Assembly: GCF_035918095.1 (NCBI RefSeq)
Contig: NZ_CP109137.1
Location: 4,714,001-4,778,000 of the forward strand
Direction: 5' to 3'
From: Streptomyces sp. NBC_01750
GTDB lineage: Bacteria > Actinomycetota > Actinomycetes > Streptomycetales > Streptomycetaceae
DNA length: 64,000 bases
Part shown: positions 19,203-41,632 of the stretch, in pieces
Layout: each line of letters starts with the position of its first letter
Numbering within the stretch: position 1 is the stretch's first letter
Notes under the pieces: generated by a model
What the model saw: only the letters and a program-made list of their open reading frames with translations
What the model was told of the DNA's origin: nothing
The model's database searches: none
Program-made: the position numbers and the translations under genes

Positions 19203-19279
19203 AAGCCCCGGGCCGCCGGCCCGGGGCTTTTGCGCGGAGCGGGTGACGGGAATCGAACCCGCGCTCCGAGCTTGGGAAT
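19203..19279 (-). repeat. tRNA-Gly 3' fragment + terminator, scar A
   Basis: On the minus strand it reads as the 3' part of a tRNA-Gly(UCC-type) gene: anticodon-stem remnant TTCCCAAGCTC, T-arm GCGGGTTCGATTCCCGT and acceptor CACCCGCTC. A 12-bp-arm hairpin (19203-19229) follows, like a tRNA terminator. The D-arm, 5' acceptor strand and encoded CCA (CCG here) are missing. This is the first of five copies in the window and lies next to the broken MmpL gene. Confidence 0.8.
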
Positions 19280-19778
19280 CACCGGCGTTTTGGCGTCACT
19301 TGAGGTCTGAGGTGCGTGAATGGTTGGTCTGGCCCTCATGGGTGCGCTTGCCAGGTGGCCCGTGCCAGAGGTGTCGTGCAGGACGCATCCAGGCGGCGGC
19401 CCGGGTGTGAACGGAACGGTTGTGTGATCAAGCTGCCGCTGTCTGGACCGACGCAGGCCGGCCTCTTCGTACCCAAGTAATTGGAATGAGGTTCGGAGAC
19501 CGGTCGGCGCCCTCTGAGCTGCGGCGATGGCCCCTGAAAGTCCGTAGTGTTCGGACCGGCTCTCCCGAGGCCGCCGAATGCTTCGCCTTCGCTCGCAAGC
19601 CCGGTGAGCGCTTGCACTCATTGCGAGACAAGGATCGCAGATCCATTCCCTGCATGTTCTCGAGGGATGGCGCGCGCACGTTTACTCTGACCGATGGGCG
19701 GACACGCTCACGAGCAGCCGCTACGCTCAGCCTGGCCAGCTGTCCCGGACAGGGGTGGATCGCTGCCAAGGGGGGCAA
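19280..19778. other. Gap between scar A and sulfatase operon
   Basis: No coding-like frame is convincing. It probably contains the promoter of the three-gene operon that starts at 19779, and the edge of the first integrated segment. Confidence 0.4.
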
Positions 19779-20645
19779 ATGTCGGAGTACGACGGGGCCC
19801 ATTCGCTTCTGATTGTCACGCTGGACAGTTGCAGGTACGACAGTGCATTGCATGCCGATACTCCATTTCTTGATGCCCTGGCCGTCCTCGAACCGGCACT
19901 TGCGCATGCAACCTTCACCCTGCCCGCGCATACGGCTATGTTCTCGGGTTACTTTCCGCTGGCGGACCGTGTGCGCGGTCTTGAGTCACCCATCGCGCTA
20001 CGGAAATTACCAACGGCTCGGAGACCTGGTCTGTTGAAGAGCCGCGGACGTGGCTTCTCGGCGGGCGTGAACATGATCGACGGCCTCCGCCGGCGTGGCT
20101 ATCGTACGGTTGGCGCGGGCGGCGTGCGCTGGTTCACAGGCCCTCAGTTACGTGAGGGATTTGATGAGTTCCTCTACTGGGGGCCCACCTATTGTCCGGA
20201 TGATGTCGACCTGCCGGCCTGGGAAGCGCCGCATTTTGCTCTCTCTCATCCGCAGGAAATCGCGGCGGTCCTGCCCGGACAGCCGGAGCCATGGCTTCTC
20301 TTTGTCAATGCGGCGGAGACGCACGCCCCATACTCGGCTCCTGATTCGATTCTGCGGCAGCAGCGCCTCTATGCGCATGCCAGAAACGCCAAGGAACCGA
20401 TTCGGCAGGACACTCGGTTCGAGCGGCTCATGGCCCAACTGTCGGAGTGTCAGGTGGACGCTGTAGCCCTCGTGGATGCCAAGCTGCGCGTTCTGTTCGG
20501 GCTGCTTCCGGGTCCGTTCGACTTCATAGTCACCGCCGACCACGGAGAGTCCTTCGGGGAGCAGGGGCTCTGGGGACACGTGCACTCTGCTCCCGAAGTA
20601 TTCAGTGTTCCTTTGTGGCAGGGCCGATACAGTGGGACGAAATGA
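19779..20645 (+). CDS. Sulfatase-like (alkaline phosphatase fold) hydrolase
   Basis: The 288-residue protein has the metal-binding start LLIVTLDSCRYD, a nucleophile region ATFTLPAHTAMFSGYFP in the place of the sulfatase C/S-x-P-x-R signature, and the late metal motif TADHGESFGEQGLWGHVH. It therefore belongs to the alkaline-phosphatase superfamily but carries no Cys or Ser for formylglycine; Thr may be the nucleophile, as in phosphonoacetate hydrolase or phosphopentomutase-like enzymes. No signal peptide is seen, so it is probably cytoplasmic. The stop overlaps the next ATG by 4 bp. Lower GC bias than flanks. Confidence 0.82.
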   Translation: MSEYDGAHSLLIVTLDSCRYDSALHADTPFLDALAVLEPALAHATFTLPAHTAMFSGYFPLADRVRGLESPIALRKLPTARRPGLLKSRGRGFSAGVNMIDGLRRRGYRTVGAGGVRWFTGPQLREGFDEFLYWGPTYCPDDVDLPAWEAPHFALSHPQEIAAVLPGQPEPWLLFVNAAETHAPYSAPDSILRQQRLYAHARNAKEPIRQDTRFERLMAQLSECQVDAVALVDAKLRVLFGLLPGPFDFIVTADHGESFGEQGLWGHVHSAPEVFSVPLWQGRYSGTK

Positions 20646-21229
20646 GCGAAATTGCCATCTCCTCGCTCCTTGCTGTCGTCACCGGCATTGCATCGTCGTA
20701 CCTGTTCTGGATCTGGCTCACCAAGGGCCTGGCGCCGAAGGTTGTCTGGTCCTCGGCCATAAGTAAAGCGCGGCTCCCTGGAGGGCCGGTTAAATACCGG
20801 GTGAAGATCATGAATACGGGCCGTCGCGCTGCCGTGGATTTCAGTGCGGTATGCATGTTGAAATTGCCCGATGCGGGTTCCAACGGGAATACCAAACTGG
20901 CCACCCTCAGAACGCTGGATGTTCCACTGCCGAGACTGGCTCCCGGAAGATCTCGCGTGATCACCATCAAAACCGATGGTATCGATCCGCTCCAGGTGCG
21001 CGGCCTGCCCGACGCTGTCCGCGAGTGTCTGAACCAGGATCCGCCGATCCCTCTCGAGCAACTGCTGGCCCGATTTCCAGGTGCCCATCTCGTGCTGCAT
21101 CTTTCGGCGTACGACGAGAAATCCGGTACCCGGTGTCACTTCACCTCACAGGACTACACGACGCGATCCATCACGGACCGGCCGTTTTCGAGTGACAGTG
21201 TCGACATACAAAGCCGGGGGCTGACCTAG
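20642..21229 (+). CDS. Single-pass membrane protein, unknown family
   Basis: This 195-residue protein has one N-terminal transmembrane helix (residues 3-27, ISSLLAVVTGIASSYLFWIWL). A soluble beta-rich domain follows (VKYRVKIMNTGRRAAVDFSAVCMLKL, LAPGRSRVITIKTDGI), suggestive of an immunoglobulin-like sandwich. No family is recognised. The start overlaps the sulfatase stop (ATGA) and its stop TAG overlaps the GTG of the third gene, so the three proteins are probably made together. It may hold the sulfatase-like protein at the membrane; that is inference. Confidence 0.75.
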   Translation: MSEIAISSLLAVVTGIASSYLFWIWLTKGLAPKVVWSSAISKARLPGGPVKYRVKIMNTGRRAAVDFSAVCMLKLPDAGSNGNTKLATLRTLDVPLPRLAPGRSRVITIKTDGIDPLQVRGLPDAVRECLNQDPPIPLEQLLARFPGAHLVLHLSAYDEKSGTRCHFTSQDYTTRSITDRPFSSDSVDIQSRGLT

Positions 21230-21960
21230 TGGAGCGTAGCGATCTCGAGATGATCGGGCAGTGCCTGAAAGGCCTGGCCGCGGCTTTGGGGTCAGGCAGC
21301 GGCGTCACTCACGTCATGGTGCCGGTCGAATCTCCGCCCATCCGTTCCGGGGACGACATCCTCGCGCCGGACGTCGTAGCCGAGGTGGCGGCCGGCGAGG
21401 ATGGTGACATCGTCGTGGTGGCGTCAAAGGTCGTCTCCCTGGAGCAGCGGCGGGTTGTGCGGTTGGCTGCGGCGCCCGATATCGGGACCGCAGCACGGCG
21501 CGAAGAACTCCGTGCGACCTTGTGCGCGGAGTTTCCTGACGCCGGTGTGCGGGACGTCGTCATGCTGGATCGCGGAGCGGCGGATTCTGAGTACATCCTC
21601 GGGCCGACCGATCCCAACCGTGCCGCAAGCGAGCTCGCCGCGAGGCTGTCCGAGAGGGTCGGCATCCGTGTCGATGTGGTGATCAGTGACAGCGCGGCAG
21701 GTGTCTCCAAGGGGGAGGCACTCATAGGCTGCCCGACATTCCTTGCCACACCCATCGGAGCCACAGCCGGTCTTTCCTTGTTGCATGCCCAACGCTGTGC
21801 GTCCGGGGCGGAGATCGTTCGCAACGCTCGCCCCCGACACCCTTTCACGATCGTCCGACCGGAGTCGCTGAGAAGCCGTCGCAGGGCGCGCATCGGTGAA
21901 TTCCGGTACGGGGGATTCCTCGATGCCGCGCGGGAGAGCCGGTTTCTTCTCGACGGATGA
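21229..21960 (+). CDS. F420-0:gamma-glutamyl ligase (CofE)-like protein
   Basis: The 243-residue protein resembles the CofE/FbiB-N ligase family: HVMVPVESPPIRSGDDIL, DGDIVVVASKVVSLEQRR (the conserved VVxxKxVS segment), VVMLDRGAADSEYILGP and VDVVISDSAAGVSKGEALIGC. The usual GxxGxxPL-type and full metal-ligand pattern is only partly kept, so it may be an amide ligase for another substrate rather than for F420. It overlaps the upstream membrane-protein gene by one base. F420 synthesis genes are otherwise absent here. Confidence 0.75.
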   Translation: MERSDLEMIGQCLKGLAAALGSGSGVTHVMVPVESPPIRSGDDILAPDVVAEVAAGEDGDIVVVASKVVSLEQRRVVRLAAAPDIGTAARREELRATLCAEFPDAGVRDVVMLDRGAADSEYILGPTDPNRAASELAARLSERVGIRVDVVISDSAAGVSKGEALIGCPTFLATPIGATAGLSLLHAQRCASGAEIVRNARPRHPFTIVRPESLRSRRRARIGEFRYGGFLDAARESRFLLDG

Positions 21961-22163
21961 TGAACGGGGCAGGCCGGACTGAAAGGGCTTCTGCAGGTCA
22001 GAAGTTGCTGCGCCTGCTCAGACTGCGTGTGGGTCGCGGCGAGAAGAGCTCGCTGCTCGAGCAGGATCTCCTGGTGGGAGGCGTGGACCAGTGGGCCGAT
22101 GGCACCGACCTCCTCAACCACCACCCCAGCGCCATTCGCGCGGCAACGCACGCGCTCGGATGA
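21957..22163 (+). CDS. Possible small coupled ORF
   Basis: The 68-residue frame begins with an ATG overlapping the stop of the CofE-like gene and reads QKLLRLLRLRVGRGEKSSLL followed by LEQDLLVGGVDQWADG, which has plausible helix content. It is not recognised. Coupling favours a gene, but length and position against a convergent gene leave it doubtful. Confidence 0.3.
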   Translation: MMNGAGRTERASAGQKLLRLLRLRVGRGEKSSLLEQDLLVGGVDQWADGTDLLNHHPSAIRAATHALG

Positions 22164-22168
22164 CCGGC

Positions 22169-23284
22169 TCAGGTCCCGACCCGAGTCGGCGGTCCCTGAG
22201 ATGAGATGCGCCAGAGCGGGGATGCGTACTGCTCTGGACGGCTGTTGATCAGGAGAGCTCTCAGGTCCTGGCGCTGTTTGCCGTTGAGGCCGAGGGCCTC
22301 GGTGATGCGGCGGAATGTGGTGTGGGTGATGCCGCGGGTGCGTGCTTCGGCCTCAAACCGGTCGAGTTGGCTGAGCGCGGCGTCAGGGTCGAGCTTCTGT
22401 TCTTGCTGGGTTCCGAGCCAAGTGGCTTTGTTGCGCTCGTAGTCGATCTCCGAGTAGCCGCAGATTTCGCGGCTGTGCTGCTCGGCTTCGTCGAGGGTTT
22501 CGGTCTCGCGGATGGCTCGGGCGAGCTGGTTGCGGTTGAGGGCGTCGTCCAGGTCGGCTTCGTGAACGGTGGGGCCCTCGTCGGTGAGCGGGACCGGCAG
22601 GCCGGCGTCCCTGACTTCGCACAGGCCGCGGACTCCTCGGGCGGTGGCCGCGAGCATGGCCGTGGCTTCGGACGGGTGCCATTCCAGAACAGAACTGACC
22701 GGCTCGACGTGCTCGGCCGTGAGTGTCTGGACGGATGGTCCCATGCGGTCGCGCAGGTCGTCGGCCGATAGCTCTCCGTCCAGGCCGGGACCGGCGACCA
22801 GGAGCCTTACGGGGGCGTTGACTTGGCAGCATGCTGCGAGCGTGAGGGCGTCGGCGAGCGGGCTGAGAAGGGTTGGTTCGTCCCCCTTGGCGAGGATGTC
22901 GCCTCCGACGTCCAGGAGATCGATGGACTCGGGGGCCAGGTGCTCGGTGAGTTCTTCGAGCTGGCGGATGATGCCCTCGGCACCGTGGTGCGGGTCGATC
23001 AGCGCGAAGGTGTGCGGGAGCTCGGCAGCGAGCCGGGGGAGTGTGGACCCTGCGGGGGCTACCGGCTTCGCGTCGGCGGGGACAGCCTGAACGCTTCTGG
23101 TGAGTGGGCGGAGACCGGTGAAGTTGGCCGGCCCCCGTGGGCCCGGTACAGGATCGATCAAGAGGCGGTCCCACGCGTACGTGAGGATCACCGCCGGACT
23201 CCGGCCGCCGTAGAGGACGGCATCGAGCATTGCGGCGGCGACTGCGTCGCCTCCTCCTCCTGCTGCCACGATCAGGCGCGTCAC
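22169..23284 (-). CDS. DUF1152 domain-containing protein
   Basis: This protein of about 371 residues matches DUF1152: the glycine-rich N-terminal VAAGGGGDAVAAAMLDAVLY, LIDPHHGAEGIIRQLEEL, LLDVGGDILAKGDEPTLLSPLADALTLA and a late region with SEIDYERNKATWL. The Gly-rich loop and DVGGD motif suggest nucleotide or phosphate binding, but no member has an established function. GTG 23284 is preferred on family grounds although the Shine-Dalgarno is poorly spaced; ATG 23317 or 23326 is possible. Its 5' end overlaps the end of the small membrane protein gene. Confidence 0.8.
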   Translation of the reverse strand: MTRLIVAAGGGGDAVAAAMLDAVLYGGRSPAVILTYAWDRLLIDPVPGPRGPANFTGLRPLTRSVQAVPADAKPVAPAGSTLPRLAAELPHTFALIDPHHGAEGIIRQLEELTEHLAPESIDLLDVGGDILAKGDEPTLLSPLADALTLAACCQVNAPVRLLVAGPGLDGELSADDLRDRMGPSVQTLTAEHVEPVSSVLEWHPSEATAMLAATARGVRGLCEVRDAGLPVPLTDEGPTVHEADLDDALNRNQLARAIRETETLDEAEQHSREICGYSEIDYERNKATWLGTQQEQKLDPDAALSQLDRFEAEARTRGITHTTFRRITEALGLNGKQRQDLRALLINSRPEQYASPLWRISSQGPPTRVGT

Positions 23285-23580
23285 CTTCCCACCGTACGGG
23301 CTGCAGGGCCGACCCATCTCGCCCACAATGTCCGCACCGCAGGCGGTAACCCAGTTTGTGCCCGTAGTGCGCAGAAATATGCCTCACGGCGTTCTCGCCG
23401 ACAAGCCTCCTGATTTTCGGCCGCATGGGCTCGGGCGACCATGTGCTCAGCGTGCTTCCGGCCCTGGGCTCCGGCTGGCCACGTGAAGATCACGCCTACG
23501 ATGCCGATGATGCCTGTGACCGCGGAACCCACCCGTTCCCAATCCGTCGCATTGTTGTCAGGCGTTTCGGAGCCGTCCAT
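23281..23580 (-). CDS. Short membrane protein, probably truncated
   Basis: The 99-residue protein has one transmembrane helix (about 20-36, VTGIIGIVGVIFTWPAG) followed by a charged helix (GRKHAEHMVARAHAAENQEACRRERREAYFCALRAQ). Similar Streptomyces proteins on mobile islands continue beyond the RREAYFAALR segment with a longer cytoplasmic domain. Here the frame ends in proline/arginine-rich sequence and runs into the DUF1152 start, so the C-terminus is probably lost. Function unknown. Confidence 0.55.
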   Translation of the reverse strand: MDGSETPDNNATDWERVGSAVTGIIGIVGVIFTWPAGAQGRKHAEHMVARAHAAENQEACRRERREAYFCALRAQTGLPPAVRTLWARWVGPAARTVGR

Positions 23581-23695
23581 CAATCTGAGGGTCGGGATGC
23601 GCTGTCAAGCCTGCGAATGCGCTCGTCCGCCCTTGGCGATGAGGCATCTGGCACAGATCTGGTGCGCGACGCCTGAACCGGTCTGGACAGCAAAG

Positions 23696-23771
23696 AAGCC
23701 CCCGGCCGCCGGCCTGGGGCTTTCCTGTGGAGCGGGTGACGGGATCGAACCCGTTTTCTCTGAGCTTGGGA
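23696..23771 (-). repeat. tRNA-Gly 3' fragment + terminator, scar B
   Basis: Same arrangement as scar A, with encoded CCA (CGCTCCA) kept and the hairpin at 23696-23722. The T-arm has decayed: one base is lost in the loop and the stem reads AAAACGGG instead of GCGCGGG. GTCTGGACAGCAAAG precedes the hairpin, a flank shared with scar E (GTCTGGACAATAGG). Confidence 0.8.
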
Positions 23772-24049
23772 GTTACCGTGCTTCTGTGACCGGGTATGGC
23801 TCCTGGCCAGGCTCAATGGGCACTGGATCCAACCTGGCTGCGTGGCCCAGCACCAGCCATTGGCCGTGGTTCTCCGCCTCGGCGGGCACGCATCGAGCAC
23901 GGCCGGTGGCCACTGCTTGAGGAGTTCGATCAGTCTGCCCTGACGTCCGTTCGGGCCCGTGTTCGATTCCAGGTGGGTCGGAACCACACAGGGGACCCCT
24001 TGGCCAGGGACGGCATAACATGGCAAACCTGCATGAAAGGGTCACTGTC

Positions 24050-24187
24050 ATGCCCCGAGCGATCTGGCGCGACGCCATCAGCTCCGGCCTGGTCACCATC
24101 CCCGTGCCAGGTCGTCGCAGCCGCCGAATCCCACGACATCACCCTGCACCGCGTCCACGCCAAGTACGGGGCTGTGCGACGAAAGGA
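24050..24187 (+). pseudogene. Remnant of a second ku gene
   Basis: The ATG at 24050 begins MPRAIWRDAISSGLVTIPV, matching the intact Ku of this window at most positions. After a one-base frame change the adjacent frame continues VAAAESHDITLHRVHAKYG, the next conserved Ku segment (TENRSISFHQYHLEDEG in the intact copy). Everything beyond residue 45 is missing and the enoyl-CoA hydratase gene follows at once. It is therefore a frameshifted, truncated paralogue. Confidence 0.85.
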
Positions 24188-24195
24188 AGACCGGG

Positions 24196-25035
24196 ATGAC
24201 CGCCTCGTACGAAACCATCAAGACCAGGCTGGACGGCAACGTCCTGTCCGCCACGTTCAACGCGCCGCCGATGAATCTCATCGGTCCCGAGGTCGTGCGG
24301 GACCTGGTCGCATTGCTCGAGGAACTGTCACAACGGACCGCCCCACGCGTGGTGATCTTCGACAGCGCGGACGCCGACTTCTTCTTCCCGCACGTCGACA
24401 TGACGAAAGTCCCCGAGTACACCGCTGAGGCCGCGAAGGCCGGAGGCCCCGGCGATGCCTCCCTGGGAATGCTGTTTCGCAAGCTGAGCCGGCTCCCTGC
24501 CGTCACCATCGCCAAGCTGCGCGGCCGCGCCCGGGGAGCGGGCAGTGAGTTTCTCCTTGCCTGCGACATGCGCTTCGCCTCCCGGCAGAACGCCATCCTG
24601 GGCCAGCCCGAAGTGGGAATCGGAGCTCCCCCCGGCGCGGGCGCGATTCAGCATCTCACCCGTCTGCTGGGCCGGGGCCGAGCACTCGAAGCCGTACTGA
24701 CGTCGTCGGACTTCGACGCAGACCTCGCCGAACGCTACGGATGGGTCAACCGTGCGGTCCCTGACGCCGAACTGGACGAGTTCGTAGCAGGCATCGCCGC
24801 GCGCATGAGCGGCTTCCCCCGCGATGCGCTGATCGCAGCCAAGTCGGCCGTCAACGCCATCAGCCTGCCGACTCCTGCCGAAGTACGCGCGGACGCCGCG
24901 CTGTTCCAGCAACTCGTCCGAGGCGAGGGAGTACAGCAGCGCACGGCTGAGCTGTTCAAGCAGGGCTTCCAGACCCGTGGTGCCACCGAACTGGGCCTCG
25001 GAGCCGTCTTGGGCGACTTGAAGGCCGTCGACTGA
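24196..25035 (+). CDS. Enoyl-CoA hydratase/isomerase family protein
   Basis: The 279-residue crotonase-fold enzyme has the first oxyanion segment FNAPPMNLIGPEVVRDL, second strand VVIFDSADADFFFPHVDM and the core LRGRARGAGSEFLLACDMRFAS (G-A-G-S-E), where the Glu is in a position used for catalysis by many hydratases. PEVGIGAPPGAGAIQHLTRLLGRGRALE and a C-terminal helical part complete a full-length protein. The specific substrate is unknown. GGAAGACCGGG lies just upstream. It is unrelated to the shorter hydratase at 12016. Confidence 0.9.
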   Translation: MTASYETIKTRLDGNVLSATFNAPPMNLIGPEVVRDLVALLEELSQRTAPRVVIFDSADADFFFPHVDMTKVPEYTAEAAKAGGPGDASLGMLFRKLSRLPAVTIAKLRGRARGAGSEFLLACDMRFASRQNAILGQPEVGIGAPPGAGAIQHLTRLLGRGRALEAVLTSSDFDADLAERYGWVNRAVPDAELDEFVAGIAARMSGFPRDALIAAKSAVNAISLPTPAEVRADAALFQQLVRGEGVQQRTAELFKQGFQTRGATELGLGAVLGDLKAVD

Positions 25036-25311
25036 TGAAGAAGAACGCTGCGTCCATCGACGCCGGGCGGCAGCGCGCCATGCCGCCACATTGTCCCGAA
25101 GCGACTTGGCTGGGCGTTCGACCTGGGCTGCTATGCGTCTCACCTGCTGCGATGGCCCGCATGTGAGCGGTTGTCCGCCGCTGTACGGCGGCGTTGTCAC
25201 GCAGCTGGACACCCAACTGCCGCTCTTGGGAACGGCACGGCTCGACAGTCCCGCCAGGCAGGGTCCGGGACCCGAGTAGTCCAGAGAAGCAGCCAGTGAG
25301 TCGATGCTCCG

Positions 25312-25360
25312 GCTCGGAGCTCGGAGCTCGGAGCTCGGAGTTCGGAGCTCGGAGCTCGGA
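25312..25360 (+). repeat. Seven 7-bp tandem repeats (GCTCGGA)
   Basis: GCTCGGA is repeated seven times without gaps; the fifth copy is GTTCGGA. It lies in the 430-bp gap between the hydratase and DJ-1 genes, about 100 bp upstream of the latter. The rest of the gap shows no gene. Confidence 0.95.
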
Positions 25361-25464
25361 ATGCAAGGCGCTGGTAGGCATGCCACCGGCCGCTGATTGG
25401 CCCTCGCCCCGGAACGGCGCGCCAGGGAGACTGCAGAGCTGGCGCCGTACTTGAAGGAGTTGTG

Positions 25465-26073
25465 ATGCAGGTAGCAGTGGTCACCTTCGACGGGTTCAAC
25501 GAGCTCGACAGCTTCATCGCTTCCGCGCTGATCAACCGATGCCGTAAGGACGGCTTGGAAGCCTTCATTACGACGCCGACGCCGGTGGTCACGTCGATGA
25601 ACGGCGTCGAGGTGACAGGGCAGCGCCCGATGGAGTTCGTTGCCGAAGCCGAGGTCGTGCTGATCGGTAGTGGCGTGAAGGCGCGAGAAGTGGTCGCCGA
25701 CGACCGGCTGATTTCCAGGCTGCGGCTCGACCCTTCGCGACAGCTGATCGGTGCCCAGTGCTCCGGCGCGCTGGTGCTCGCCCGGCTGGGGTTGCTGGAC
25801 GGCATGCCGGCTTGCACGGACATGAAGACCCGGCCCTTTGCAGAAGCCTGCGGCGTCACCGTGCTGGACGCGCCGTTCCACGCCGAGGGGAACATCGCTA
25901 CGGCGGGCGGTTGCCTGGCGTCCCAGTACCTTGCCACGTGGGTGATCACCCGGATGCTCGGGGAGGATCCCGCGCGCGACGTCATCGGCTACGTGGCTCC
26001 GGTCGGCGAAAACCAGGAGACTGTCGAGCGCGCCATGCGTGCCGTCCACGCGGGTGAGGTTGCACTGCACTGA
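25465..26073 (+). CDS. DJ-1/PfpI family protein
   Basis: The 202-residue class I glutamine-amidotransferase-like protein contains VAVVTFDGFNELDSFIA (the N-terminal strand with acidic residue) and the nucleophile elbow LIGAQCSGALVLARLG with Cys99. PFHAEGNIATAGGCLASQYLATWV follows. Members include chaperones, proteases and isonitrile hydratase-like enzymes; here the activity is not determined. ATG 25465 fits AAGGAG at 5-bp spacing better than GTG 25462. Confidence 0.88.
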   Translation: MQVAVVTFDGFNELDSFIASALINRCRKDGLEAFITTPTPVVTSMNGVEVTGQRPMEFVAEAEVVLIGSGVKAREVVADDRLISRLRLDPSRQLIGAQCSGALVLARLGLLDGMPACTDMKTRPFAEACGVTVLDAPFHAEGNIATAGGCLASQYLATWVITRMLGEDPARDVIGYVAPVGENQETVERAMRAVHAGEVALH

Positions 26074-26202
26074 CCCCCCGCGATCAGCCTTTTTTCGACT
26101 ACGGTCACCGTGGTTGCTGTACTCCGCTGCTGTACCGCCATCGCGAGACCTGCACGGGAAACCGCTGGCGCGCGCCATGGCCGGAAGCGATCATGGCCAA
26201 TC

Positions 26203-26715: not shown

Positions 26716-26802
26716 ACACCGCCGGGTGACTGGCTGCTCAAGAGGCGACCCGGCCGTGAGTGACCGCCATCGACATCCTCACGGTCAGATCCGGATGTCA
26801 AT

Positions 26803-26835
26803 GACCCCCAGCCTTGATCGACTGGGGTCTTTTCG
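26803..26835 (+). terminator. Rho-independent terminator
   Basis: GACCCCCAG pairs with CTGGGGTC across a 9-base loop, followed by TTTTCG. It lies downstream of the DUF6584-like gene and is of the classical type with a T-run. Confidence 0.8.
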
Positions 26836-26932
26836 CTGGTGCCCCGGCAGCGGCCGTCGTCGTGCCCACGCTTGATGCCTCCTGATGTTCGGAGTCAAGC
26901 CGACGTGCCGTCGAGGTCACTGCATCGCCCCG

Positions 26933-32864: not shown

Positions 32865-32935
32865 GTAACGAGGCTTGTGCGGTGACGCGGCTTCTGACCT
32901 GCGTAGATACCCTCTCCCCGGGGGCCTTGCGGGTC

Positions 32936-33836: not shown

Positions 33837-33859
33837 GTTCCGCAGTCTACATTCCACTA

Positions 33860-33899: not shown

Positions 33900-33927
33900 G
33901 AAACGGAAACACTGAAGCGGAGACCTC

Positions 33928-34482: not shown

Positions 34483-35789
34483 TCTCCGCGCACCGGGCCC
34501 GGCCCCACCTGGCGGGCAACTACGCCCCGGTCGGCGAAGAACTCACCGCGTACGACCTGCCGGTGACCGGGCGGATCCCGGCCGAACTGGCCGGCTGGTA
34601 CCTCCACAACGGGCCGAACCCGGCCGACGCCGCCTCCGGACACCGGTTCTTCGGCGACGGCATGATCCACGGCGTCCGGCTGGAGGGCGGCCGGGCCACC
34701 TCGTACCGCAACCGCTGGGTGCGTACCCGCAGCTTCACCGACGGGGCCCGGACCTACGACGACCAAGGCCACCGCGACCTCACCGCGGGCCAGGCCAACA
34801 CTCACGTCATCCGGCACGCGGGCCGGACCCTCGCCCTGGTCGAGACGGCCCTGCCGTACGAGCTCACCTGCGGCCTGGACACGGTCGGCGCGTACGACTT
34901 CGGCGGGAAGCTGGGCACCGCGGTGACCGCGCACACGAAGGCGTGCCCGGTCACCGGGGAGCTGCACTTCTTCGGCTACGGGATGCTGGAGGCCCCCTAC
35001 CTCACCTACCACCGGGCGGATGCCTCGGGCGAGCTGGTGATCAGCAGGTCTGTCGAGGTGCCCGGGCCGACGATGATGCACGACTTCAACCTCACCGCGG
35101 AGCACGTCGTCTTCATGGACCTGCCCGTCGTCTTCGACCGGGACTTGGCCATGGCCGGGACCATGCCCTACCGCTGGGACGACGGCTACGGCGCCCGGCT
35201 GGGGGTGCTGCGCCGCAACGACCCGTATGGCGAGGTGCGCTGGTTCGGCATCGACCCGTGCTACGTGTTCCACTCGCTCAACGCTTACGACGCGCCGGAC
35301 GGCACCATCGTGCTGCACGTCATGCGCTACCCGGAGTTGTGGCGGCGGACCGGCGACGTCATCGACCGCAGGCAGGAGGCCGTGCTCTGGAAGTGGACGA
35401 TCGACCCCGCCACCGGGACGGTCCGCGAGGAGCAGTGCGACGACCGTCCCGGCGAGTTCCCTCGGGTCGATGACCGGCTGACCGGGCTCGACGCCACCTA
35501 CGGGCACGTGACCTGTGGCAATGCATTGGTGCGGTACGAGCTGGGCAGCGGCGCGGCGACGGAGCACGACTTCGGGCCCCGCCGCACGCCCGGCGAGGCT
35601 GCCTTCGCCCCGGCCGGTGACGCGGCGGGCGGCCCCGGCTGGCTCATGACGTATGTCTACGACGCCGGCACCGACCGCAGCGACCTGGTCATCCTGGACG
35701 CGGGCGACCTCGCCGCCGACCCGGTCGCAATCATTCACCTGCCGACCCGCGTGCCGTACGGCTTCCACGGCAACTGGCTTGCGGATTGA
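34479..35789 (+). CDS. Carotenoid cleavage oxygenase family enzyme
   Basis: This 436-residue non-heme iron dioxygenase has the four-histidine site visible in order: NTHVIRH, AHTKACP (HTK), MMHDFNLT (HDF) and the terminal YGFHGNW. GWYLHNGPNP near the N-terminus and FFGDGMIHG are also typical, and length is normal. Members split carotenoids, stilbenes or apocarotenoids; the substrate is unknown and no carotenoid genes are nearby. It is coupled to the upstream membrane protein and likely controlled by PadR, suggesting response to a phenolic or lipophilic compound; that last step is inference. Confidence 0.92.
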   Translation: MISAHRARPHLAGNYAPVGEELTAYDLPVTGRIPAELAGWYLHNGPNPADAASGHRFFGDGMIHGVRLEGGRATSYRNRWVRTRSFTDGARTYDDQGHRDLTAGQANTHVIRHAGRTLALVETALPYELTCGLDTVGAYDFGGKLGTAVTAHTKACPVTGELHFFGYGMLEAPYLTYHRADASGELVISRSVEVPGPTMMHDFNLTAEHVVFMDLPVVFDRDLAMAGTMPYRWDDGYGARLGVLRRNDPYGEVRWFGIDPCYVFHSLNAYDAPDGTIVLHVMRYPELWRRTGDVIDRRQEAVLWKWTIDPATGTVREEQCDDRPGEFPRVDDRLTGLDATYGHVTCGNALVRYELGSGAATEHDFGPRRTPGEAAFAPAGDAAGGPGWLMTYVYDAGTDRSDLVILDAGDLAADPVAIIHLPTRVPYGFHGNWLAD

Positions 35790-36184
35790 GCAACCAAGCC
35801 CGGACGGGCCAGGCTGCTCAGCTGGGCCCGGATATCCGACAGGCAAGGACAAGCACCGGGCTGGACGTGGTCTTGAGCCGCAGGAAGACCTCATGAGCCA
35901 CCGTCAGGATCCGCTCGACCGCCGCAAGTTCAGCCGCAATGCCGGGGAGCGGTTCGATCCCCGGCCGGGCGCGCGGACCGCCGCTGCAGGAGGAATCGGA
36001 GACGTCCTGACCTCTACTTTCGGGGCCTCTTGAGTCAACCAGCCGCACTGCACCGCTTCCCGGAGCGCAGCCGGCACGCCCAGCTCGTATGGGGCGCGCT
36101 CCGCGCATCCCTTGTCGTCCATCACTGGTGGCGCCGACCGCTGGTGGAGGTCTGGAGGGTCAGAAATTGGTCCAGACAACAAAC
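35790..36184. other. Gap before scar D, no gene seen
   Basis: A short ATG frame at 35893-36033 (SHRQDPLDRRKFSRNAGERF) has no family and ends early. ATTGGTCCAGACAAC just before the scar is the flank shared, with changes, by scars B and E. Confidence 0.35.
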
Positions 36185-36260
36185 AGGACCCGGGTCTGCG
36201 ACCTGGGCCTTCGTTGTGGAGCGGGTGACGAGAATCGAACCCGCGCTCTGAGCTTGGGAA
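36185..36260 (-). repeat. tRNA-Gly 3' fragment + terminator, scar D
   Basis: The tRNA part is like scar C but with one change in the T-loop region (GATTCTCGT), and encoded CCA is kept. The hairpin (36185-36211) has a different loop and arms (AGGACCCGGGTCT), so it is the most diverged terminator of the five. A GGCACG pair at 36375/36385 resembles the arm-type repeat near scars C and E. Confidence 0.8.
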
Positions 36261-36532
36261 TCAACCAGCACTTGATCGCCAGACATGTTCCTGACCAGCG
36301 GAAACGCTGCACAGGTGTACGGCTGGGTAGCGGCCGGACGGTGCCCGTAGTGACCCCTGTTTACCGCTACGAATGGCACGTAGTGGCACGTGGGGTGCGT
36401 CGGGTTCGGCTGCAGGGCCGGCCGCGAGCGGCTGCGATGAGGCCGCACCGACCGAACTCGGGTTTCTATGGGCCGAGGCTTCATCTGCCAGCTTCCTCCG
36501 TACCGGAGGTTTCCACGACTAGCCTCCGCAGC

Positions 36533-37339
36533 ATGCTGCGTATCGCCGACGCCCGCACCGGCCACCTCGTGGAGATTCCCTCCGCGCACCGCCACCTCCT
36601 GCGCATCTGCGTCCATCTACCGGTCATCGACAACGGGATCGGCGCGGTGCACCTGCGCGTGCTGCTGCTCGGCGACGTACTCGCGCGCACCGCTGAGCTG
36701 CACGGCCTGCAGACCCTGACGGTGCTCACCGCACCGGACCTGCCGCAGGAGCAAGTTCAGGCGCTCGACCGGGTCATGGCCGTACTCGGCATCCACCCGC
36801 CCGCCACCGTCCGTGCTCACGATCCGAGTCAGACACCGAGCGCTCTTGCCGACGTGCACGTGCTCGCGCGCGGCACCGACCAGCAAGACAGCGTCGACGG
36901 GGTACGGATCGACGTGGGCCAGGTCGGCACTGCACCCCCGGGCGAGGGTGGCCCAGGCTCCCCGGTCGCAGCCGCCGCAGAAGGAACCGATCCGCTGGCT
37001 GTCAGGATGCTGATGCTCGGCCATGCCTACCGCACGCCCGTCATGGTCACCGGTGCCGCGCTCGTCGAGGCCCGGCGGACACTGCGGCACTGGCGGCAAC
37101 TGGTGGCCGACTGGGCGCAGGAGCCATCCAGGCCGATCCCTGCCGACCTGCTGCGACAGGCTCATGCCGCGCTCGCCGATAATCTCGGCGTCCCCGCCGT
37201 CCTGGACATGCTGCGCAGCGTGGAGAGGGACGCGGCAGTGCCGGCCGGTGCCAAGTTCGAGACGTTCGCCCATCTCGACCGCGTCCTCGGGCTGGACCTC
37301 GCGCGCGAGGTCGGCCACCAGCACCAGGAGACGCCGTGA
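36533..37339 (+). CDS. Cysteinyl-tRNA synthetase-like protein without HIGH/KMSKS
   Basis: This 268-residue protein looks like a shortened CysRS/MshC relative. The N-terminus keeps the order ICVHLPVIDNGIGAVHLRVLLLGDVL, corresponding to CGPTVYD..HIGHAR..VxFDVL of CysRS, with HIGH degenerated. The C-terminus AHAALADNLGVPAVLDMLRSVERDA, then FAHLDRVLGLDL, matches the CysRS helical region (D-LGTPAAL...). No KMSKS is visible and the catalytic middle is shortened, so aminoacylation is unlikely. Its stop overlaps the sixA start (GTGA), implying a functional link. Similar proteins are found in Streptomyces; the role is unknown. Confidence 0.7.
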   Translation: MLRIADARTGHLVEIPSAHRHLLRICVHLPVIDNGIGAVHLRVLLLGDVLARTAELHGLQTLTVLTAPDLPQEQVQALDRVMAVLGIHPPATVRAHDPSQTPSALADVHVLARGTDQQDSVDGVRIDVGQVGTAPPGEGGPGSPVAAAAEGTDPLAVRMLMLGHAYRTPVMVTGAALVEARRTLRHWRQLVADWAQEPSRPIPADLLRQAHAALADNLGVPAVLDMLRSVERDAAVPAGAKFETFAHLDRVLGLDLAREVGHQHQETP

Positions 37340-37863
37340 CCGCAGGCGACTCCCGGCGCCTGGTCGTGCTGCGGCACGCCAAGTCCGCCTGGCCCGACGA
37401 CGTGGCCGACCACGAGCGGCCTCTCGCCCCGCGCGGCCGCCGCGGGGCCCCGGCCGCCGGCCGCTGGCTGCGCGAGGCCGACTGCGTTCCCGACCTCGTC
37501 GTGTGCTCCACCGCCCGGCGCACCCGCCAGACATGGGACCTCGTCTCGGACGAGCTCGACGCCACCACGCCGGTGACCCACGACGCACGCCTCTACCAGG
37601 CGAGCGCCGGGGAGTTGCTCGGCGTGGTACGGGACATCCCGGCGCACGTACGGACGCTGATACTGGTCGGGCACAACCCCGGCGTGCAGGACCTGGTCCT
37701 GATGCTCACCGGTGACGCGGACGGCTACGCCCTGGAGCAGACGCGTACGAAGTTCCCGACGTCCGCGATCGCCGTGCTGTGCCTGTCAGGGCTCTGGTCG
37801 GGCCTGGAACCGGGTGCTGCCCGGCTGACCGAGATGGTCGTGCCCCGCGGCGCGAAGCCATGA
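37336..37863 (+). CDS. SixA-type phosphohistidine phosphatase
   Basis: The 175-residue histidine-phosphatase-superfamily protein has the RHG-like signature VLRHAKSAWPD (Arg13, His14), VVCSTARRTRQTWDLV and the second catalytic His in LILVGHNPGVQDL. The RHAKS form and length point to SixA, which dephosphorylates phosphohistidine proteins. GTG 37336 overlaps the stop of the CysRS-like gene. The native substrate is unknown; a phosphotransfer protein is expected from the family. Confidence 0.9.
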   Translation: MTAGDSRRLVVLRHAKSAWPDDVADHERPLAPRGRRGAPAAGRWLREADCVPDLVVCSTARRTRQTWDLVSDELDATTPVTHDARLYQASAGELLGVVRDIPAHVRTLILVGHNPGVQDLVLMLTGDADGYALEQTRTKFPTSAIAVLCLSGLWSGLEPGAARLTEMVVPRGAKP

Positions 37864-38014
37864 CGGGACGGTGCGGACGCCCAGAGGTGCGCCCACGGCG
37901 GCTGATCCTGAATTGGGGTTGCGGCAGCTCATTGCACCAGTGGTGCGGGTTCGTCGGACCTGGAGGGGAGCACGCTGTTCACCTGATCCCGCCCATAGTC
38001 GCGGAGCAGGGAGC

Positions 38015-38302
38015 TCACACCATGGGCCTCTCCGGCATGGGCTGCTCTACGCCGTCCAGCTCCAGCGTGCATCTGAGCCTGGACGGGACGAGGTGCGGCT
38101 GGCGTACCCGGACCCGGAACGGGCGGGTGGGATCGTCGGGCAGTTCGCCGGTCAGCAGGCTCGTCCCACGGCCGTGCTCCTTCAGGCACGCGATCACTTT
38201 GCCGTTCACCAGGAGCTCGATCTCTCCGTCTTTTCCGGGCCCGACGTTCACGGTGATCGAATGGTCACCCTGATCGAGGTGGAAGTGGTGGCTGTGCCCC
38301 AT
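38015..38302 (-). CDS. Small hypothetical protein
   Basis: The 95-residue soluble protein begins MGHSHHFHLDQGD (His-rich) and contains ITVNVGPGKDGEIELLVNGK and LRCTLELDGVEQPMPERP, i.e. beta-strand-rich and possibly metal-binding. It is not assigned to a family. It sits divergently beside the M50 protease gene. Codon bias is normal and GGAGGTGCGTC lies before the ATG, which supports a real gene. Confidence 0.7.
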   Translation of the reverse strand: MGHSHHFHLDQGDHSITVNVGPGKDGEIELLVNGKVIACLKEHGRGTSLLTGELPDDPTRPFRVRVRQPHLVPSRLRCTLELDGVEQPMPERPMV

Positions 38303-38549
38303 GACGCACCTCCACAGTGCTGTCGGTACGTCCACCCTAGATCCGGCGCCCTCCCCGACCGTACCTGCGCGGCGACGGGACGAACGGAGTTCACGGACCT
38401 GAGAAGCGAGCGCCCCCTGTGGCCTCTGGCCGACCGCGGGAGATTCCGAGAGCGACACTTGTAGGTGGGTGCCGTGCTGGTCGGTTTACGGAGTGCAGGT
38501 CGCGAGGTCCTGCCCGGTGGACCGGATGCCGAGCCGGCAGGAGACGACG

Positions 38550-39680
38550 ATGAACGGCTCGGTCCGTATCGGACAGGTTGTCGGTGTACCGCTGCGGATG
38601 CACTGGAGCGTGCCGCTGCTGGTGGTCCTGTTCGCGTACGGTCTCGGCCGCCAGACCCTCCCCGCATGGACTCCGGGACGCTCGGACGCGGTGTACACCT
38701 TCGCCAGTGCCGTAGGCGCGGTGCTGCTCATGGGCAGCCTCCTGCTCCACGAGACGGCACACGCCGCGACTGCCCGCAGGAAGAAGATCGCGGTACAGGA
38801 TGTGACGCTGTGGGCGCTGGGCGGAATGACCCGGATGGGGCGACCGCAGACCGCAGCGGTGGCTTTCGCGGTGGCGGTCAGCGGGCCGCTCACCAGCCTG
38901 GCTGTCGGAGGCGCCGCGCTCGGAGCGGGAATCGGGCTGCACGCGCTGTCCGGCTGGGCGGTGCCCGCCGCCGTTCTGGTGTGGCTCGGCTGGGCGAACC
39001 TGTTCCTGGGCGCATTCAACCTCCTGCCCGCTGCGCCGCTCGACGGCGGAAGGGTGGTGCAGGCGCTGTTGTGGTGGCGCACCGGAGACCGGGAACGTGC
39101 GGATCGGGCGGCCTCCCGAAGCGGTCAGGTCGTGGGCGTGCTGCTGATGGCCTTCGGCTGGATCTCCTTCCTGCGCGGGGCGCCGGGCGGGCTGTGGCTC
39201 GTCTTCGTCGGTCTCTTCATCACGGTCGTCGCCGGCGCGGAGCGGCAACGCGCCGTGATGCGCACGGCATTGCGGGGCGTGCGGGTGGCCGATGCCATGT
39301 CCAGCCCGGTGACCACCGGTGCCGACTGGCTGACCGTCCAGCGTTTCATCGATGAGGTGGCAGTGAACTCCCGCCATTCCGCTGTGCCGCTGCTCGATTT
39401 CGAAGGCCGTCCCAGCGGGATCGTTCAGGTACGCAGGCTTGCCGGGATACCGGGAGCGCGCCGGGAGGCGCTGCGCGTGCGCGAGGTGGCGATCCCGCTG
39501 TCGCAGTGCGCGGTTGCCGCTCCGAGTGATCTTCTGAGTGAGGCTCTCGACAGGCTCCGCCCGGGTACCGGCATGCGCATTCTCGTCGTGGACGGGGGGC
39601 ATCTGGTGGGGATCGTCACCGCGAAGGACATTTCACGGCTGATGCAGCGGCACACGCTGGGGGGCCAAGGGTCCAACTGA
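38550..39680 (+). CDS. M50 site-2-protease-like protein with CBS domains
   Basis: The 376-residue intramembrane metalloprotease has a zinc motif HETAH (67-71, HExxH) and the third ligand motif NLLPAAPLDGGR (about 158-169) between membrane helices. A C-terminal pair of CBS domains (about 250-370, VADAMSSPVTTGADWLTV and VVDGGHLVGIVTAKDISRL) follows. This is the layout of mycobacterial Rv2625c/Rip3, a DosR-regulon member. It may cleave membrane proteins under hypoxic or energy stress with CBS sensing adenylate ligands. ATG 38550 has CAGGAG upstream. Confidence 0.9.
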   Translation: MNGSVRIGQVVGVPLRMHWSVPLLVVLFAYGLGRQTLPAWTPGRSDAVYTFASAVGAVLLMGSLLLHETAHAATARRKKIAVQDVTLWALGGMTRMGRPQTAAVAFAVAVSGPLTSLAVGGAALGAGIGLHALSGWAVPAAVLVWLGWANLFLGAFNLLPAAPLDGGRVVQALLWWRTGDRERADRAASRSGQVVGVLLMAFGWISFLRGAPGGLWLVFVGLFITVVAGAERQRAVMRTALRGVRVADAMSSPVTTGADWLTVQRFIDEVAVNSRHSAVPLLDFEGRPSGIVQVRRLAGIPGARREALRVREVAIPLSQCAVAAPSDLLSEALDRLRPGTGMRILVVDGGHLVGIVTAKDISRLMQRHTLGGQGSN

Positions 39681-39699
39681 CCGGGTCCCGCAGAGTCGT

Positions 39700-39995
39700 C
39701 GGTGATGTGCGCCCTTCGGCCAGGCTCGTCGACGTCACGGAGGCGGGCACCGCGGGCGCGGGCGGCGTCCAGGCCATCGTTGGTGCCCTCCACGACGAGT
39801 TCGCGGATGCGCGAGGGCGGCGAAGACGTGGAAGACCAGGCGCCGCCCGGTGTGGTGGTGTTGAGCGACTAGTGGAGCGAGGTGAAGCCGATGCCGCGAT
39901 TGTGCAGGCAGGACACGATCGCGATCAGGTCCTGGATGGAGTGGCCGAGCCGGTCCATCGACGGGACGACGAGGGTGTCACCGGCCGCAGGTAGT
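39700..39995 (-). pseudogene. Serine resolvase remnant
   Basis: Three minus-strand frames together give a Tn3-type resolvase stretch: GDTLVVPSMDRLGHSIQDLI followed by AIVSCLHNRGIGFTSLH* (stop where active genes read HE), TTTPGGRLVFHVFAALA, and IRELVVEGTNDGLDAARARG. The N-terminal catalytic Ser region and the C-terminal helix-turn-helix are absent, and at least two frameshifts plus a nonsense codon occur. It is a relic of a transposon or integrative element. Confidence 0.85.
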
Positions 39996-40049
39996 CCGCG
40001 CTTTCACGAGGCTGTCATGGGGCCGATGCCTGCGTAGCCGCCCCGACCG

Positions 40050-40775
40050 TTAGCGAGCCGGCGCCCAAGGCTGGAGTGCGGCCTGGGCCGCGCTCCGGAT
40101 CCGGGCGCGCAGGGGCTGCGGGTGTACGGGCCAATGCCTCGGCTGTTTCGGGGTCTTCCAGGGGGCGTACAGCGCCCCGCTGACCGCTCCGGTCATCGCG
40201 CCGACGAGGGCTCCCGCGCCGACCTCGTCGAGTTCGTCGGGGAACGCGGCCCGCAGGTGCCGGGCGATATCGCGCTGCGCGCCCTGCTGGATCAGCAGGG
40301 CGCGCGCCCCTGGATCGCGGGAACGGTCCGCGTCAGCCGCGTCCGGACGGCTGTCACCCACCGAGACACCGTCCTCAACGGTCTCGACCACGGCGAGAAC
40401 ATGCTCCCGGCGCCGCTCTCTGGCCGAGGGCCGAATGTCGAACTCGCCTTCGAAATCGTCCACTGGCTCGGCCTGAAGGCGTGATGCCCAGATGACCTCG
40501 GGGTTGCCGAAGGCGGTGACAATCGGCCTCTCGCGCATGGCACCGCGATGCGCGCCCAGCAGCTGCGCGGGCACACACCGCTGTCCCCGGCGAGCCCCGC
40601 CACCGCCTTCCGCCACACTGGGCCGCCGATCGTGAGCCCGTGCGGCAAAGACCAGGACGCGGCCGTCGCCACCGGTGTTGTCGTACGCGATGGTGCCAGC
40701 GGACAGCTCAATCTCGGGCAGCGCCCCCGGGTACAGATTCGACAGATCGCACCAGTGACAACGTGGCGCAGGCAC
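40050..40775 (-). CDS. Doubtful ORF with TetR-like C-terminal segment
   Basis: The 241-residue frame is heterogeneous. Residues 150-215 (ARALLIQQGAQRDIARHLRAAF, then VGAGALVGAMTGAVSGALYA) look like the last helices of a TetR-type regulator. The N-terminal part looks unrelated (IELSAGTIAYDNTGGDGRVLVF). No helix-turn-helix and no clear start are present. It is probably a fusion of remnants and is listed with low confidence. Confidence 0.25.
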   Translation of the reverse strand: MPAPRCHWCDLSNLYPGALPEIELSAGTIAYDNTGGDGRVLVFAARAHDRRPSVAEGGGGARRGQRCVPAQLLGAHRGAMRERPIVTAFGNPEVIWASRLQAEPVDDFEGEFDIRPSARERRREHVLAVVETVEDGVSVGDSRPDAADADRSRDPGARALLIQQGAQRDIARHLRAAFPDELDEVGAGALVGAMTGAVSGALYAPWKTPKQPRHWPVHPQPLRARIRSAAQAALQPWAPAR

Positions 40776-40805
40776 ACAAGCCCCCGGTGGGAACCGTCGC
40801 GCGGC

Positions 40806-41237
40806 TCACCGTTCCCGTTCCGCCAACTCCTTGAAGTGCTCGAGGTCATTCCGTACGAGCCGTTCGATCGCGGTTGCCTGGGCGAACCCCTTCGGCCCGC
40901 CGAACGCTTGCCTGACGGTGCCCGGGTCGTACTCGATCCGGGCCTGGACTCGGGTGTGCTCCCGGTCGATGGGCAGCAGTGCGAACGTTCCCGCCAGGTC
41001 GGGACCGCGCGTGGTCTGCCACTCCATCATGTTTTCCTTGCCGTGGTCGGTGATCTCGGCTTCGAACTCCTGAGCCCGGCCGCCCGCGTCGACGTCCAGG
41101 TGCGCCCGGTGCCCGCCCCCCGAACGAGCCTCGCGTACTCCTTCCAGGAATTGCGAATAGGTCTCCACGCGGTGGAGGCAGTCCCAGGCCACTTCCATCG
41201 GAACACCGATGTCGATCTGTTCTTCGAGAGTGCTCAT
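40806..41237 (-). CDS. SRPBCC (polyketide cyclase/dehydrase-like) protein
   Basis: The 143-residue START/Bet v1-fold protein begins with STLEEQIDIGVPMEVAWDCLHRVETYSQFLEGV, the usual entry of the Coq10/cyclase-like group. EFEAEITDHGKENMMEWQTTRGPDLAGTFAL and a terminal amphipathic helix follow. It probably binds a hydrophobic ligand; the family is common near stress or envelope genes. ATG 41237 with GTGAGGTGGCC upstream. Monocistronic. Confidence 0.88.
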   Translation of the reverse strand: MSTLEEQIDIGVPMEVAWDCLHRVETYSQFLEGVREARSGGGHRAHLDVDAGGRAQEFEAEITDHGKENMMEWQTTRGPDLAGTFALLPIDREHTRVQARIEYDPGTVRQAFGGPKGFAQATAIERLVRNDLEHFKELAERER

Positions 41238-41553
41238 CGGCCACCTCACACCTTGGTTCACGGCTTATGGGCCCTGTCTCCAGTGTGCCCCCGGAGGACC
41301 GATGGCGGCCGGCGTCAGTGCCGGCGGGCCGGCGGGCCGGTGCCGTCCGGCGTCGGGGCGGCACGGGAGCAGGAGGGCCGGGCGGAGGGCGGTGGCGGTG
41401 AGGGCGAGGCTTGATGCGGCGCGTTGTCACCCAGATGAATTGCTCCTCCACCGTGGTCTCATCCGTAGGCTGATCCCGAAGAGGCCGCACACCCGCAGTG
41501 GTACGAGCGCGCGGAGGGCACGGAGCCCTCCCGAACTGGTCTGGACAATAGGC

Positions 41554-41632
41554 AAGCCCCGGGCCGCTGGCCTGGGGCTTTCATATGGAGCGGGTGACGG
41601 GAATCGAACCCGCGCCCTGAGCTTGGGAAGCT
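41554..41632 (-). repeat. tRNA-Gly 3' fragment + terminator, scar E
   Basis: The longest tRNA remnant of the five. On the minus strand AGCTTCCCAAGCTC contains the complete anticodon stem-loop core (UCC anticodon), followed by an intact T-arm, acceptor strand and CCA, then the hairpin at 41554-41580. The D-arm and 5' acceptor strand are still missing. It ends the series of scars at the left edge of the nitrate island. Confidence 0.85.

Follow-up and report, generated by a model that had tools for sequence, protein, structure and literature searches.

What leaves five truncated copies of a single tRNA gene, all facing the same way, along one stretch of a bacterial chromosome? The question is raised by 64,000 nucleotides of Streptomyces sp. 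NBC_01750 (contig NZ_CP109137.1, positions 4,714,001 to 4,778,000), hereafter the window (G000:C1:4714001-4778000); coordinates below count from its first position, run on past its right end, and are negative to its left. An original prediction had described the 3' part of a tRNA-Gly gene with its terminator, on the minus strand, at 19.2, 23.7, 32.8, 36.2 and 41.6 kb, and had taken these scars for traces of integrative elements that inserted one after another into one tRNA gene and then lost their recombination genes. Based upon sequence comparisons within this chromosome and across the genus, we consider that the five scars are very probably the attachment sites that remained when elements integrated site-specifically, one after another (accretion), at a gene for tRNA-Gly with the anticodon CCC.

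Six scars and an intact tRNA-Gly(CCC) gene

A repeat search of the window recovered one 109-nt repeat family with five co-oriented copies, at 19187, 23680, 32773, 36169 and 41538. When the copies were aligned to the intact 74-nt tRNA-Gly(CCC), from which the position ranges and identities given here derive, all five proved to be minus-strand tRNA-Gly 3' parts running from the anticodon loop to the 3' end, each followed by a G+C-rich hairpin, which bears out the original description. The core of scar 1 (19236..19278; tRNA positions 31-73, 98% identity) is the outermost detectable one and lacks the CCA end found in the other four, in agreement with the earlier wording "mostly CCA"; its terminator-like hairpin and L-arm block lie at 19187..19235, also on the minus strand. 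Scar 2 (23728..23771; positions 32-74, 89%, with small indels) is the most decayed, followed to the right by scar 3 (32821..32865; positions 30-74, 100%), scar 4 (36217..36260; positions 31-74, 98%) and scar 5 (41586..41632; positions 28-74, 98%). In the copy alignment, homology between scars reaches about 130 nt 5' of the core and about 15 nt past the hairpin, an extension absent from the original description. Read in the sense of the tRNA, the copies thus have three blocks in common: an arm of about 130 nt (the R-arm), the tRNA 3' part, and the hairpin with a GTTGTCTAGACC-like block (the L-arm). Two types of arm alternate, such that scars 3 and 5 are alike, as are scar 4 and a sixth scar described below.

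Where is the gene from which these parts came? ARAGORN detected no tRNA in the 64-kb window, and neither did Rfam at E<=1, whose single sub-threshold match there was read as chance. The intact gene had been expected to the right of the window, and there it lies: a tRNA-Gly at 122240-122313 on the minus strand, 58 kb past the right end, in which ARAGORN places the anticodon at position 33 and reads it as CCC, not as the UCC first proposed. We ran a nucleotide scar profile, trained on 106 scars from other genomes with this genome (G000) left out, over 244 kb of the chromosome, and it recovered six scars and the intact tRNA, all in one orientation. The sixth scar (87481-87524, minus strand) lies right of the window, and so the count of five holds for the window but not for the array. 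The next-ranked matches were palindromic terminators read on the opposite strand, and the profile found no further scar between about -120 and 19.2 kb, nor any next to an integrase relic at 62.6 kb (see below). A control of 2.2 Mb of reversed sequence scored 31 bits at best and contained no match at the 46-bit scar threshold; thus, the scars are not chance matches.

At the intact gene, the 5' half of the tRNA stands where the scars have their R-arm. This replacement suggests that each scar marks a junction, consisting of the end of an older element (L-arm, terminator and core) followed by the R-arm of a newer one. The L-arm at the intact tRNA resembles the 236-nt spacer that separates an intact integrase gene from the tRNA in genome G006 (71 nt at 85% and 43 nt at 77%). 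In the mechanism that we propose, an incoming element would carry a tRNA 3' part and terminator as its crossover core, with an arm on each side, and a tyrosine integrase would recombine this core with tRNA-Gly(CCC) at the anticodon loop. In the rebuilt tRNA, the gene's own 5' half would be joined to the 3' half brought by the element, and the displaced 3' part would stay behind as a scar. Since an old 3' part would be left at each insertion, newer modules (the segments from core to core) should lie nearer the tRNA and older ones farther to the left. Both the recombination itself and this order of events are what we infer from the sequences.

An integrase family at the same gene and scars across the genus

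No match to the integrase model PF00589 was found in the array, the nearest lying about 125 kb right of the tRNA. Two small relics of an integrase family are present: about 10 last codons with the stop at the 23.7-kb scar, and a C-terminus of 33 codons at 62602-62700 (plus strand) with no scar beside it. The former is part of a block of integrase gene end, L-arm and terminator (23642..23727, plus strand) that matches the loci L148 (82 nt at 85%) and L018 (78 nt at 82%); apart from the 62.6-kb relic, the matches listed in a tblastn search at low word size were noise. The claim that no complete tRNA or integrase is left therefore stands for the window's tRNA and for PF00589, but has to make room for these relics. 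Elsewhere on this chromosome, a truncated integrase of the same family is accompanied by a solitary core that has both its arms (G000:C1:2823271-2824037; L018:8271-9037). The core adjoins the C-terminal part of this tyrosine integrase, no tRNA-Gly gene was found at the locus, and the core looks like an attP-type joint. Relatives of the 2.82-Mb integrase sit against tRNA-Gly(CCC) in other genomes.

The integrase has the Pfam domains Phage_integrase and a SAM-like N-terminal domain. We examined the best 80 of 350 relatives obtained with an alignment of six integrases, nearly all of them from Streptomyces. An intact tRNA-Gly(CCC) lies downstream on the opposite strand in 65 of these 80 loci (within 150 nt in 53 of the 65) and a scar lies 57-119 nt from the integrase in 7, so that a tRNA or a scar is found downstream in 72; the integrase genes commonly end about 58 nt from the core. 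Two contigs carry two integrase loci each (L151/L153 in Streptomyces sp. HPF1205, L179/L196 in S. diastatochromogenes), and in each pair a scar follows one locus and the intact tRNA follows the other, as would be expected of tandem elements. Thus, scars in line with the tRNA, together with an integrase family aimed at tRNA-Gly(CCC), point to serial integration. Phage matches to the integrase came from 251 records, all below 60% and the best among the matches listed at 39%, and plasmid matches from five records, the best at 62% over part of the protein. A distantly related integrase (41% identity) is found on NC_006910, a small integrative plasmid of 11.2 kb from Micromonospora rosaria, which we take to be pMR2. 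As a separate observation, sister integrases stand beside a different tRNA-Gly-like gene in three genomes (G019:C1:2820866-2826767, 55% identity over 369 aa; G009:C1:3326776-3336458 and G020:C22:36623-46466, 43-44% over the C-terminal part), and 6-10 kb further along, part of a tRNA-Gly 3' end is repeated in each of the three. These sites are perhaps a second, parallel hot spot.

The element adjoining the tRNA encodes a 569-aa relaxase (PF03432; 115719-117428), which is the sole PF03432 match in the whole genome, and a hidden Markov model (HMM) search detected no integrase in this element. A second relaxase, at 60325-61128, is a relic, and the stretch holding it and the 33-codon integrase relic (60325-62700), with no scar, is perhaps a decayed extra element inside a larger module. 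We rejected the reading of the array as actinomycete integrative and conjugative elements (AICEs), as FtsK/SpoIIIE (PF01580) is unmatched in the array; the nearest match lies about 118 kb right of the tRNA.

How general are such arrays? We surveyed the downstream side of the tRNA in 94 genomes of the genus, where the sequence scanned had a median length of 19 kb (range 8.8 to 162 kb); findings for examined flanks below refer to this distance. Fourteen relatives were picked non-blindly, some for scars, some for integrases and some for lacking both, and 79 genomes were chosen regardless of scars (80 of 147 with an intact tRNA, long contigs preferred, G139 with 1 kb being dropped). The 46-bit threshold was applied to scars, an integrase counted as full-length if it covered at least 340 of 390 profile positions, and module statistics concern closed (core-to-core) modules only. 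All 116 scars found lie downstream of tRNA-Gly(CCC) and in the same orientation as it, with none in the opposite orientation. At least one scar is present in 58 of the 94 genomes, and none in the examined flank of the other 36; the set chosen blindly to scars has 85 scars in 49 of 79 genomes. The 5' edge of the scar falls at tRNA position 31 in 66 of 116 cases and at positions 28-29 in 37, which points to a crossover at the anticodon loop. There are 26 full-length integrases, in 25 genomes, and 25 of them lie right of all scars (12 of 13 when only scar-bearing genomes are counted).

The right flank of the array (dcd, dCTP deaminase by Pfam) is conserved in 14 of 14 relatives, whereas the interior is not. 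Synteny on the left resumes at about -63 kb in comparison with G018, -47 kb with G109 and -44 kb with G015, and the gap between the conserved flanks is about 185 kb here versus 17 kb in G018, 169 versus 22 kb in G109, and 166 versus 80 kb in G015; for G005, no left-flank synteny was found within about 79 kb. G018, G109 and G015 are all free of scars over about 98 kb downstream of the tRNA. These short-gap relatives are where we looked for scars in strains without the cargo, the case that would have spoken for unrelated pseudogenes, and found none. They also answer in part the comparison with an empty site that had been suggested: they are free of scars, but a pristine empty site was not identified.

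Several observations weigh against serial integration at this gene. There is no common empty site, the 18 genomes free of both scars and integrases having almost no sequence in common just left of the tRNA (four matches of at least 300 nt), and about 63 kb to the left of scar 1 is also outside synteny. The other side of the tRNA was surveyed for 0.5-1.4 kb only, this genome excepted. Copies do occur off the tRNA: in a 41-genome search, one lay 146 kb away on the far side in G007, and G002, G020 and G024 had copies on other contigs; the lone seventh copy of this chromosome (C1:2823991-2824037) is about 1.9 Mb from the array. Eight of the 80 integrase loci have no tRNA-Gly(CCC) or scar in the examined flank (one of them with 109 nt of flank only), and the full-length integrase of G147 lies beyond a scar. 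Finally, a full-length integrase is present in 12 of 58 modules nearest the tRNA and in 0 of 58 older modules, a comparison biased by the median of 19 kb examined and by the length of integrase-bearing modules.

Modules without an integrase

Among the 116 closed modules, 12 contain a full-length integrase (all 12 nearest the tRNA, a figure biased by the length of flank examined), 22 contain fragments, and 82 have none detectable. The median module length is 14.7 kb with an integrase versus 3.3 kb without, and 38 of the integrase-less modules are 3 kb or shorter. Arm models trained on the 12 integrase-bearing modules nonetheless recognized (at 20 bits or more) an R-arm in 65 and an L-arm in 70 of the 82 integrase-less modules, versus 0 of 80 mid-module controls. 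The six modules of the array described here have, at the same threshold, kept the L-arm in 6 of 6 cases and the R-arm in 4 of 6, i.e. they have attachment sites on both sides. In the four modules closed by the five scars, M1 to M4 from left to right, we found no integrase (HMM, PF00589), no PF03432 or PF01580 match and no relaxase (tblastn) in the part of the open reading frames (ORFs) scanned, and no integrase codons at the ends of M2-M4.

Some integrase-less modules recur. At 70% mutual coverage, 20 of the 116 modules fall into seven clusters shared between some of the 94 arrays; none of these clusters includes any of the six modules described here. K1, a unit of 1.2-1.3 kb with an AbiEii nucleotidyltransferase and a small ORF, is present in six genomes, with four kinds of older neighbour among the five in which that neighbour is closed, and K2 and K3 are present in three genomes each. 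A search of ten whole genomes returned six K1 copies of at least 1155 nt, one per K1 genome and each within the array, together with weaker partial matches in G073 (elsewhere) and G069. Between G005 and G019, K1 homology stops at the core, at the anticodon-loop edge, and the module is 94.6% identical versus 81.2% for the flanking gene; its first ~200 nt (the R-arm) are far more divergent than the cargo, i.e. it is mosaic. We rejected K1 as proof of horizontal transfer, however, because only 5 of 15 pairs exceed the identity of the flanking gene (in three cases by some 10 points or more) and 10 are lower, the flank identities being those of single high-scoring segment pairs of 175-762 nt. In G082, K2 stands against the tRNA; in G131, which is 95.7% identical in the right flank, K2 is followed by three more modules and the tRNA, and in G005 by K1 and the tRNA. 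The difference between these two could stem from insertion in G131 or from precise loss in G082, and either needs edges at the core. No family integrase was found at E<=1e-20 in G131, G082 or G069, three of the ten genomes searched. As to its content, K2 of G005 (L047:3622-8388), 6.9 kb long, encodes a 1588-aa RHS-repeat protein with a putative type VII secretion system signal domain, resembling bacterial polymorphic toxins.

One module of the window has a copy elsewhere. A search with window 22.0-41.8 kb matched 362 of 392 genomes, with scoring limited to the one or two top candidates in each; among the matches listed, most were single genes or M3 cargo without arms, except in G024. There, window 32847-35807, comprising the R-arm, PadR, unknown protein and carotenoid oxygenase genes of M3, is matched at 93% (G024:C1:324846-327802; L139:8846-11802). 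The homology starts in the anticodon-loop part of the core, of which only about 19 nt are resembled, and at the other end it is lost before scar 4. No tRNA was detected on this stretch of G024, and the copy looks like the same module at a secondary attachment site.

How, then, might modules without an integrase have come to lie between scars? It is quite possible that each arrived as a complete integrative mobilizable element whose own integrase was later deleted, accretion being followed by decay. The integrase relics at 23.7 and 62.6 kb and the fragments in 22 of 116 closed modules fit this account, as does a related relaxase in the examined flank of 11 of the 25 genomes having a full-length integrase; decay of AICEs to cargo and truncated integrases between direct repeats is on record in the available part of PMC9513070. 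Yet 82 modules have no detectable integrase, and the same integrase-less modules recur, K1 in six genomes beside different older neighbours and K2 and K3 in three each. Recurrence of the same 1.3-kb unit makes independent decay unlikely; a single decay, then vertical descent with changes on both sides, would agree with K1 pairs so seldom beating their flanking gene. The predicted loss of recombination genes thus finds its only support here in the two small relics, whereas the recurrent modules suggest that others may have arrived without an integrase. With somewhat more reserve, we consider that tRNA-Gly(CCC) may be an integron-like cassette anchor, at which the integrases of visiting mobilizable elements insert, excise and exchange small integrase-less units across species, many hosts being integrase-free.

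Homologous recombination could instead spread modules with no involvement of an integrase, as arms, core and terminator together form repeats of about 200-250 nt, roughly 70-90% identical between modules, and the K1 R-arm is mosaic between G005 and G019. We think this unlikely, because K1 copies cease to be homologous at the anticodon-loop edge of the core, the G024 copy of M3 starts at such an edge with no tRNA-Gly repeat there, and 116 of 116 surveyed scars share one orientation. It is extremely improbable that the scars have nothing to do with the cargo and arose independently, as degenerate tRNA pseudogenes or as selfish repeats: a few genomes do have copies off the tRNA, but the 5' edge, arms, terminators and orientation are all shared among scars, integrase genes commonly end at the same distance from the same core, and short-gap G018, G109 and G015 are free of scars. 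Pseudogenes were rejected on the shared edge, the empty reversed control and these scar-free genomes. Under serial integration at tRNA-Gly(CCC), integrase-less modules of the M1-M4 type may move, or have moved, by means of an integrase from another element at the same gene. Given that 82 of 116 closed modules show no integrase, that 65 of these retain the R-arm and that some recur as units beside different older neighbours, such modules appear to be mobile as cassettes, and "insertion, then loss" is perhaps only part of the story.

Cargo of the array and comparison with known systems

Gene calls in the window came from a home-made codon-usage caller. M1 to M4 carry small gene sets that are unrelated to one another. 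M1 (19279..23727, 4.4 kb) contains a sulfatase-like ORF (19755-20645, plus strand) and a DUF1152 gene (22169-23284, minus strand), with the integrase gene end at its right end. M2 (23772..32820, 9.0 kb) encodes enoyl-CoA hydratase, DJ-1/PfpI, YetF-like, methyltransferase, HEAT/ankyrin, NIPSNAP and PASTA proteins; two 35-nt tandem copies (28682-28751) lie just ahead of the called start of the HEAT/ankyrin gene, or inside the gene if a longer ORF is taken. M3 (32866..36216, 3.4 kb) has its R-arm at 32866..32991 (minus strand; 91% over 56 nt to the arm at scar 5) and encodes a PadR regulator, an unknown protein and an RPE65-type carotenoid oxygenase. M4 (36261..41585, 5.3 kb) encodes an unknown protein, a histidine phosphatase, an M50/CBS protease and an SRPBCC protein; the region of the last (40779-41398) has a 93% copy near the far end of the chromosome (G000:C1:8848147-8848767). 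M5 fills the rest of the window (41633..64000) and continues to the sixth scar, with its R-arm at 41633..41771 (minus strand) and the relaxase and integrase relics described above. Its cargo (42424-51055 and 56590-59540) includes, by Pfam, nitrate reductase gamma, delta, beta and alpha-type genes, an MFS transporter, two universal stress proteins and a LuxR-type response regulator, and this nitrate reductase and stress block may serve anaerobiosis or a dormancy-like state. The element adjoining the tRNA carries kdpA and kdpC at 100212-104727, only the flanking two of three genes having been scanned.

A specific integrase family is tied to a single hot spot that bears scars in 49 of 79 genomes chosen regardless of them, and each genome gains a readable, ordered record of gene acquisition. 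Among the cargo of this array are genes for respiratory nitrate reductase and for potassium uptake. The recurrent integrase-less modules make it testable whether cis-mobilizable cassettes cross species and who supplies the integrase. In addition, core and arms could mark element boundaries that integrase-based island finders miss.

Systems of this kind are known, and we compare them here as the available parts of the cited papers describe them. Accretion at a Streptomyces tRNA with decay between repeats has been published (PMC9513070), and tRNA genes of Frankia and S. avermitilis are on record as sites of tandem AICEs (PMC3218068). The Streptomyces AICEs at tRNA-Arg are similar in that elements and remnants lie in tandem, bounded by direct repeats of one tRNA, with decay to cargo and a truncated integrase, in the same genus (PMC9513070). 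In contrast, our array uses another tRNA, there are up to six scars per genome, a relaxase is present with no FtsK/SpoIIIE match in the array, and small integrase-less modules recur across species. Cis-mobilizable elements (CIMEs; PMC5704250) likewise have attachment sites on both sides and no integrase seen, whereas the recurrent 1.3-kb units here are small and common to several species. The Dehalococcoides ssrA islands (PMC3146451) also show many 3'-end direct repeats downstream of one RNA gene, vary between strains, and include modules proposed to be cis-mobilizable, but they use a tmRNA gene and a 20-bp repeat rather than a half tRNA of about 45 nt with terminator and a tyrosine integrase.

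In the additive flexible genomic islands of Alteromonas (PMC4119200), Actinomarinales (PMC7771536) and Methylopumilus (PMC10872708), too, a tRNA is the target for cassettes with 3' repeats, content is strain-specific and cassettes are common to several taxa; what differs in our case is that the crossover edge, the two arms and the family of the integrase could be resolved and counted over 94 genomes. Integrons (PMC4119200) resemble the array in having ordered units, the newest at a fixed site, and a recombinase acting on repeated sites. The sites here, however, are tRNA 3' parts, and the phage-type tyrosine recombinase comes on incoming elements and is not fixed at the array: no integrase was detected in 82 of 116 modules, and no family integrase at E<=1e-20 in G131, G082 and G069. 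Among the matches listed in the open-licence literature, we found no paper on a tRNA-Gly(CCC) array in Streptomyces, whereas accretion, CIMEs and cassette arrays have been published; we therefore count the array as new and its kind as known. Thus, its kind is that of accretion, cis-mobilizable elements and additive genomic islands, while the tRNA-Gly(CCC) array itself is a new and well-resolved member.

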